This document shows positions 48,437-49,454 of a stretch of DNA of 64,000 nt, piece by piece. How positions within the stretch are numbered: position 1 is the stretch's first letter; each line of letters starts with the position of its first letter. The position numbers and the translations under genes are program-made. The notes beneath the pieces are model-generated. The model did no database searches, was not told the DNA's origin, and saw only the letters and a list, made by a program, of their open reading frames with translations. The stretch is from Alistipes sp. Marseille-P5061 (GTDB lineage: Bacteria; Bacteroidota; Bacteroidia; Bacteroidales; Rikenellaceae). The stretch is taken from positions 377,120 through 441,119 of the forward strand of contig NZ_LT985748.1 of NCBI RefSeq assembly GCF_900290115.1, given 5' to 3'.

Positions 48437-48928
48437 TTAGTCTCTTATCAGAGGAATATCCTGCCTTACAGAAGGTTCATCCGCCTGATAAAGCCGAGAA
48501 ACCTTGGCGCCATAACCTTTGACTGTAACGGTATAACGAGTCCACAACCCGAATAGAACTCTCTTGCGTTTGGTCTCATATTGCGGATTTATGACCATAT
48601 CATAATCCGTTCCTTCCAACGCTTTCGCCATGGCCATCGAACGAATGCGCTTGCCACGCAGACCAAAAATGGACTTGCTGTTGTTGGTAGTCAAGACCTC
48701 GGCATATTTACGCCCGCCGCTGACCTTTATGCCGAACAGATATCCGACACGGACCGTTCCTTCCAACTTTTCGGATGTATTGAAATTCAAATCGGCTCGA
48801 ATCTCGTTAGGGTGCACTTCCGTATAGGCAAAGGGCGCAGAAGCGCAGGTTTTGCCCAATGTCGAACAACTTGAAAATGCAAACAGGGAAATAATTGCAA
48901 TGATTCCAGTAAATATAATACGTTTCAT
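48437..48928 (-). CDS. Small lipoprotein of unknown function
   Basis: The 163-residue protein has a lipoprotein signal (MKRIIFTGIIAIISLFAFSSC, lipidated at C21). The mature part is soluble and beta-rich, with a Gly-rich middle (GYLFGIKVSGGRKYAEVL) and a basic stretch (YETKRKRVLFGLWTRYTVTVKGYGA). I do not recognise the family with certainty. Base composition is clearly more AT-rich than the neighbouring genes, and codons such as AAA, ATA and TTT are frequent, which suggests acquisition from outside or relaxed selection. It lies beside a large palindrome in a 1.2-kb AT-rich island. Confidence 0.75.
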   Translation of the reverse strand: MKRIIFTGIIAIISLFAFSSCSTLGKTCASAPFAYTEVHPNEIRADLNFNTSEKLEGTVRVGYLFGIKVSGGRKYAEVLTTNNSKSIFGLRGKRIRSMAMAKALEGTDYDMVINPQYETKRKRVLFGLWTRYTVTVKGYGAKVSRLYQADEPSVRQDIPLIRD

Positions 48929-49026
48929 ACGTTGTCTTTTGATTTTGTTTTCATTTTATTTTCCGGTCCGTTGCAGTTTTCGGGAAGGGGCTCGGACAAA
49001 TAAAAAACGCGGACCTTTAACTTCAT
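48929..49026. other. AT-rich spacer upstream of the small lipoprotein gene
   Basis: No clear promoter of the usual type and no other gene is visible. Confidence 0.4.
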
Positions 49027-49148
49027 TTGTTTCTGAGGTATCGCCAAACACCTTACTCCCAAACAAGTAAAAGCCCACGTTGGTAAACAACGTGAGCATC
49101 AACTTTTACTCTTGGGAGTTTCTTTAATTTGGCGATTTTCAGAAACAA
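49027..49148. repeat. 122-bp multi-tier imperfect palindrome
   Basis: Five nested arms pair in order, from outside in. They are TTGTTTCTG/CAGAAACAA (49027-49035, 49140-49148), ATCGCCAAA/TTTGGCGAT (49040-49048, 49128-49136), ACTCCCAA/TTGGGAGT (49055-49062, 49112-49119), AGTAAAAG/CTTTTACT (49066-49073, 49103-49110) and CACGTTG/CAACGTG (49076-49082, 49088-49094) with loop GTAAA. About 41 pairs form one long rod with small internal loops. It has no gene of its own and no obvious target-site duplication. It could be a non-autonomous mobile element, a structured RNA gene or a recombination site. Confidence 0.75.
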
Positions 49149-49454
49149 GAATAGAAGCTAACGCTTTTTATGTCAATATGTCCCTAATTTACAAGGTCAT
49201 TTCTTCATAGGCAGTCTTTTTTATCATTACAAAAATAGTGAATTATTTGATGCATCCAATGTACTCTGGTGTTTTTTTGTAAAAATGAACGCTGCACAAA
49301 ACCATATCCGAACCCAATTCAATCCCGAGATATGCCCCTTCAACAAGATAAGCACATGAAAACGACTGACGAATCATCGAGACATGCACTCCGTCTCGGA
49401 ATCTGCAAAGCTTCTTTTCCCGTTGAAAAAATCGGCTATCACGCGAAAATGTCG
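49149..49454. other. AT-rich intergenic region before uvrA
   Basis: A 306-bp stretch without a supported gene. A minus-strand frame (49243-49527) crosses it and runs into uvrA, but it would start inside the uvrA coding start and has no motif. No terminator-like hairpin is seen apart from the adjacent palindrome. Confidence 0.45.

Follow-up and report, generated by a model that had tools for sequence, protein, structure and literature searches.

A structured leader upstream of a lipoprotein gene

The window, by which we mean the whole 64,000-nucleotide stretch of DNA that was analysed, carries a palindrome of 122 bp at positions 49027–49148. Its five nested arms had been described in an earlier note on this DNA and are present in the sequence. 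Folded as RNA, the plus strand reaches a minimum free energy of −53.6 kcal/mol (z −8.9) and the minus strand −56.2 kcal/mol (z −10.3). For neither strand did any of 200 shuffled sequences fold as low. The AT-rich island in which the palindrome had been placed was likewise recovered, with a GC content of 0.36–0.42 compared to 0.63–0.70 on either side. The span originally assigned turned out to be too narrow, because the conserved element covers about 49000–49171 (154 bits with covariance model R1, see below). Conserved leader features flank this element on both sides, with a promoter and a mini-ORF reaching up to 49259 and a pairing arm at 48965–48970 (Table 1). The palindrome is the central hairpin of a structured RNA of ~190 nt on the minus strand and not an isolated palindrome. 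The earlier note stated that the flanking genes could not account for it, but it forms the 5′ leader of its minus-strand neighbour, the adjacent lipoprotein gene. The lipoprotein scored 24.6 bits against Pfam PF20205, below the cut-off of 27.

Table 1. Parts of the leader and the adjacent gene, in window coordinates
Feature	Position	Strand	Basis
−33 element TTG of predicted promoter	49257..49259	-	TTG-N19-TAnnTTTG form
−7 element TATTTTTG of predicted promoter	49230..49237	-	TAnnTTTG match, upstream regions of copies
Mini-ORF ATG AAG AAA TGA (Met-Lys-Lys-stop), context GCCTATG	49197..49208	-	Short in 57/62 copies
Hairpin H0, AAAAAGC-GUUA-GCUU	49153..49169	-	R1 helix 1, 95% paired; compensatory changes in distant copies
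Stem P1, 5′ arm (partner 49027-49036)	49139..49148	-	Both-side changes in 9/10 pairs
Stem P1, 3′ arm	49027..49036	-	Same covariation test as 5′ arm
Stem P2, 5′ arm (partner 49040-49048)	49128..49136	-	Both-side changes in 7/7 pairs
Stem P2, 3′ arm	49040..49048	-	Same covariation test as 5′ arm
Stem P3, 5′ arm (partner 49055-49062)	49112..49119	-	Folding in window and most copies
Stem P3, 3′ arm	49055..49062	-	Folding
Stem P4, 5′ arm (partner 49066-49073)	49103..49110	-	Folding in window and most copies
Stem P4, 3′ arm	49066..49073	-	Folding
Segment 1, 5′ arm of apical stem P5, GCUCACGUUG	49088..49097	-	95% paired, compensatory changes
Segment 2, 3′ arm of apical stem P5, CAACGUGGG; partner segment 1 or 3	49074..49082	-	Covariation, energies
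Segment 3, putative terminator arm AAAGGUCCGCG; partner segment 2 (helix T) or 4 (helix P6)	49008..49018	-	Covariation, permutation
U-tract UUUUUUAU after segment 3	49000..49007	-	T-run conserved in alignments A1 and A2
Segment 4, putative anti-terminator arm CGGACC	48965..48970	-	Permutation tests
Putative controlled gene, 163-aa lipoprotein with lipobox	48437..48928	-	ORF; weak DUF6567 similarity

The leader belongs to a family found across Bacteroidota

Following the suggestion of the earlier note, copies were sought in the genome and its relatives with blastn and a covariance model, and a family was found across the genus, the order and the phylum. With blastn, further copies were seen in the same genome, in the genus and in other families of the order. 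Between copies the stems differ almost completely, while the internal loops stay alike. Model R1 comprises 172 positions in the minus-strand reading and was built from 36 copies. All 61 genomes of the genus that were searched contain the element, with 1–24 copies each and seven in the genome studied here. At E ≤ 1e-4, it was found in 143 of 296 genomes of the order, a lower bound as few candidates were scored per genome, and at E ≤ 1e-3 in 36 of 297 genomes of the phylum. Carriers include Alistipes sp. dk3624, Alistipes muris, Bacteroides muris, two Dysgonomonas strains and Candidatus Symbiothrix. In the Candidatus Symbiothrix MAG Hs463_bin62, ~20 contigs have an exact match to a conserved 23-letter motif of the element, which suggests a large expansion. 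The copies are partly non-independent, and 107 of 129 are left once those with at least 90% similarity are removed.

No Rfam 15 family matches the element in the window region, where the only hit was MicL, elsewhere and with 14.8 bits against a cut-off of 56. Nor was there a match over any element at 19 loci with diverse copies. At one locus, an rteR sRNA scores above the Rfam gathering threshold ~1.4 kb from the element copy (L115:38-120). A literature search, which covered the main text of PMC8040213, found no description of the element. The family is apparently uncatalogued and widespread in Bacteroidota, the published candidates HMP2_4205 and GUCCY-hairpin having been compared by description only. 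We rejected a viral origin, with just four IMG/VR contigs carrying the pattern. At one locus (L057:3221-5396), the element and a downstream two-gene unit are duplicated in tandem.

Covariation and wobble pairs point to a minus-strand RNA

Independent drift of the arms in relatives had been named beforehand as what would speak against conserved pairing. The arms do not drift independently: in alignment A1, 93.2% of cells are paired compared to 74.9% in shuffled alignments, and compensatory changes on both sides occur in 25 of 32 pairs. The covariation score was 0.584 (0.247 for shuffled alignments), and control structures slid along the alignment reached only 34–46% paired cells. P3 and P4 were kept out of the covariation scoring because their lengths are too variable for alignment. 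Conserved, aptamer-like loops lie inside the covarying stems in the 5′-UTR. A long outer closing stem between the 5′ flank and the flank of the U-tract was also considered (3/5000, control 76/5000) and is not claimed.

To assign the strand, we counted wobble pairs. Read from the minus strand, the alignment contains 121 G-U cells and 17 A-C cells. Such an asymmetry is not expected for a DNA palindrome or for a plus-strand RNA, and the functional form is an RNA of the minus strand. The score of R1 in the window, only 29.5 bits on the plus strand, points the same way.

Two mutually exclusive helices share one strand

In addition to the helices of R1, segments 2 and 3 can pair in a helix that the model does not contain (helix T). 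In this helix 96.7% of cells are paired, and its covariation lies above that of all 500 shuffles. Segment 2 pairs with segment 3 of its own copy at −14.25 kcal/mol, compared to −12.11 kcal/mol for permuted partners (0/2000). Four copies with a divergent segment 2 (L108, L116, L057 and L029) show matching changes in segment 3. For pairing of segment 3 with the downstream segment 4 (helix P6), permutations gave 0/5000 among Bacteroidales-like copies and 6/5000 among other copies. Forty held-out copies, fetched once the patterns had been seen, gave 0/5000 for T and likewise for P6. In the window, the energies are −16.3 kcal/mol for P5, −16.1 kcal/mol for T and −12.0 kcal/mol for P6, so that P5 and T are about equal.

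P5 and T exclude each other, share segment 2, and one of them is followed by a U-tract, as is characteristic of attenuators. From covariation and the held-out copies, the four segments would appear to form a bistable attenuator, with either 1:2 and 3:4 or 2:3 followed by the U-tract. Because the U-tract follows segment 3, we infer that this switch acts on transcription and that 2:3 pairing would end it. Helix T spans the 3′ arms of P1–P4 and would be a pseudoknot if these stay formed. A pseudoknotted T would be unusual as an intrinsic terminator, which counts against the attenuator model.

A promoter motif and a mini-ORF precede the element

Promoters of Bacteroidetes have the form TTG-N19-TAnnTTTG. 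Within 170 nt upstream of the element, TAnnTTTG was found on the RNA strand in 110 of 129 copies, compared to 23 on the reverse strand and 10 downstream. The held-out copies gave 29 of 40 upstream and 12 on the reverse strand. ORFs, promoters and signal peptides were called by simple pattern rules throughout.

Shortly after the promoter, 62 of the 129 copies carry GCCTATG. An in-frame stop follows this ATG after 0–2 further codons in 57 of the 62, and within six codons in all of them. Early stops of this kind are not seen in the other two frames. Within the genus, the encoded peptides include MKH*, MVK*, MGK*, MIK* and ME*, and copies of other families have equivalents in other contexts (MT*, MKK*, ME*). 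Fifteen held-out copies have both the promoter and an ATG, and in 11 of these a stop occurs within four further codon positions. The mini-ORF is clearly selected in the genus. It cannot be the universal sensor, since outside the genus the stretch from promoter to element lacks an ATG in many copies. We also considered a conserved UAG inside H0 as the stop of a leader peptide and rejected it, as its frame is not kept across copies. At six loci from another family of the class (L091, L092, L095, L097, L111 and L117), just 18–19 nt separate the promoter box from the element and a mini-ORF is absent, and the element precedes SusC-type receptor-like genes by 225–300 nt.

Most downstream genes encode exported proteins

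The nearest ORF on the 3′ side of the element is co-oriented with it in 114 of 128 copies, with a median distance of 60 nt to the start codon, whereas orientation on the 5′ side is random (59 vs 64). By our simple rule, 80 of 96 downstream products have a signal-peptide-like N-terminus, 37 of them with a lipobox, compared to 31 of 196 background ORFs. Among the held-out copies, an exported product is predicted for 27 of 38. The downstream genes are otherwise diverse, with export in common and few Pfam families. No common metabolic theme or pathway was found among them, and no common neighbour gene or protein partner among the copies. As the downstream genes share export and no pathway, they give no hint of a ligand. 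The exported proteins that are marked by the leader may be co-regulated as a set. A repeated but rare non-exported type are dihydrofolate reductase-like genes (RibD C-terminal type), which follow the copies at L115, L293 and L295.

The promoter-leader-gene unit is accessory

The two genes that flank the promoter-leader-gene unit, a nitrilase-like gene and uvrA, are close neighbours in at least 13 other genomes of the genus that lack the unit between them. The lipoprotein gene was found in only 2 of 101 genomes, and the one ortholog found sits at another location, on a contig other than that of uvrA. Promoter, leader and gene together form an accessory unit.

The leader also occurs on mobile elements, in copies that are 81–89% identical and follow mobV-type or equivalent genes. 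In the same genome, an Erm(F) methyltransferase gene follows this leader (G000:C2:776909-777081; L148:2501-2673, minus strand) at a distance of 60 nt, and the stretch preceding the leader is the end of mobV in Bacteroides uniformis pBUN1. On pBUN1 the cargo is blaMUN-1, and on a Parabacteroides distasonis plasmid it is a DUF4433 gene. The same leader is found before different cargo and therefore travels with, and is re-usable for, different cargo genes.

Of the options that the earlier note had offered, a structured RNA was borne out and a miniature mobile element was not. Copies dispersed independently of host genes, or empty sites of the element alone, were not found, since the copies carry a co-oriented gene and the empty sites lack the whole promoter-leader-gene unit; a terminal signature was not seen either. 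A recombination or conjugation site, also proposed there, found no direct evidence, although copies of the leader on mobile elements come after mobV-type relaxase genes.

Proposed mechanism and alternative explanations

We propose that the element is a cis-acting minus-strand mRNA leader, belonging to a family that mainly precedes genes of exported proteins, and that it works as a bistable attenuator with a mini-ORF; we give this reading a probability of about two thirds. Transcription would start near 49225, and a ribosome could translate the mini-ORF AUG-AAG-AAA-UGA. Next, H0 and the five-tier hairpin P1–P5 would form in the RNA, where segment 2 would have two near-equal partners, segments 1 and 3. 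Pairing of 1:2 would complete the long hairpin and leave segment 3 free for segment 4 upon read-through, resulting in expression. Pairing of 2:3 would give, together with the U-tract, a terminator-like helix, and transcription would stop ahead of the lipoprotein gene. The choice might be set by the state of a ribosome on the mini-ORF, or by a ligand or protein on the conserved internal loops. Within the genus, a ribosome on the mini-ORF is the most economical idea, and in relatives without the mini-ORF, sensing may fall to the conserved loops.

A riboswitch-like leader is possible but doubtful. Binding of a small molecule or second messenger to the conserved internal loops of P1–P4 would decide between P5 and T, and the mini-ORF would be auxiliary. 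The conserved loops, the fully covarying stems, the many copies per genome and the competing helices as expression platform would all fit, as would the frequent absence of the mini-ORF outside the genus. However, metabolite riboswitches usually show one metabolic theme downstream, whereas the genes here share export, and the mini-ORF is clearly selected within the genus. We consider it unlikely that the leader is the site of a trans-acting RNA-binding protein that controls a regulon of exported proteins, either as an antiterminator or as a stabiliser. The regulon-like spread of the leader in 1–24 copies per genome before such genes is consistent with this, but neither a partner protein nor a common neighbour gene was found. 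Much less probable still is that the palindrome works at the DNA level, serving as a mobile or recombination site or an anchor for cargo capture, with incidental RNA folding. Empty sites in relatives, the different cargo (ErmF, blaMUN-1, the DUF4433 gene) behind one leader after mobV-type genes, and the shared DNA in plasmid records, which stops near the element's 3′ end, would agree with it. Against it stand the excess of G-U over A-C cells, which shows selection on one RNA strand, and the conservation of gene orientation, promoter and mini-ORF. A small regulatory RNA from the plus strand, pointing away from the lipoprotein gene, was rejected as extremely improbable on strand scores and wobble asymmetry, and the promoter motif lies on the minus strand, even though the plus strand folds well too and has at its 3′ end what looks like a short hairpin with Ts behind it.

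Beyond the attenuator itself, we tentatively put forward, as an idea that is rather less likely to hold than to fail, a phylum-wide RNA regulon. Its bistable leaders, all of a single family and headed in Bacteroidales by an ORF of 2–4 codons, would report the state of translation initiation or early elongation to many unrelated genes of lipoproteins and secreted proteins and to mobile cargo genes. If so, a horizontally acquired gene for an exported protein would arrive with its own translation-stress switch. Although Bacteroidota are dominant in the gut, the cis-regulatory RNAs known from them are few; the present family, without an Rfam entry, was seen in roughly half of the sampled Bacteroidales genomes, which is a lower bound. 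It also ties resistance genes carried by mobile elements to this leader. The conserved mini-ORF allows a clear test of whether a ribosome on three codons controls a long RNA switch.

Comparison with known systems

In trp-type attenuators, the mRNA leader contains a short ORF and pairs either segments 1:2 and 3:4 or, mutually exclusively, 2:3. The present leader has the same four-segment layout and a short ORF. In contrast to the trp type, the U-tract here follows segment 3, so that the terminator-like pair is 2:3 and not 3:4. Furthermore, the ORF has 2–4 codons without a run of regulatory codons, and no biosynthetic operon is involved. Listeria lmo0919 and other antibiotic-responsive attenuators use a terminator in the leader, with ribosome sensing in several of them (PMC5418344). 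They resemble the present family in this logic, and some of its members precede resistance genes, but phylum, structure and gene class differ.

Among structured RNA candidates of the same phylum, Bacteroidales-1, Bacteroides-1 and Flavo-1 have Rfam models, none of which matches the element, and GUCCY-hairpin is listed without an Rfam accession in the table of PMC2864571, an earlier screen. PMC8040213 includes among its palindromic candidates HMP2_4205, which has 132 bp, occurs mostly in Bacteroidetes and is predicted to be a terminator. GUCCY-hairpin and the HMP2 candidates were compared by description only, and a partial overlap with the present family is possible.

In this genus, tetQ leaders carry ATG CGG CAG TAA (MRQ*) after the promoter, and three members of the present family (L129, L130 and L136) begin with the same peptide. 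The tetQ leader peptide is reportedly required for control by tetracycline. For tetQ of the Bacteroides element CTnDOT, the accounts of Wang et al. 2005 given in PMC12121999 and PMC5418344 describe translational attenuation and a uORF that encodes three residues, four codons if the stop is counted. One tetQ leader of the genus (L162:1350-1500) has this mini-ORF and long inverted arms, and gives no match with R1. The best score of R1 at tetQ leaders was 11.3 bits (E 0.95) and did not lie over the leader; a homologous structure was not found there, and we rejected tetQ as a member of the family. As far as those accounts go, tetQ also differs in being attenuated at the level of translation, while the competing helix of the present family ends in a U-tract, and tetQ is one resistance gene, while the present family mostly precedes genes of exported proteins. 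The two have in common the phylum, a Bacteroidetes-type promoter, a start followed by two codons and a stop, and long-range hairpin arms before the gene. As in tetQ, the promoter is directly followed by a peptide of about three residues in the 57 short GCCTATG copies of the genus. By this analogy of layout, tetQ is the closest precedent, and a relationship between it and the family is not claimed. If the ribosome does control these leaders, the single precedent of tetQ would become a general mechanism.
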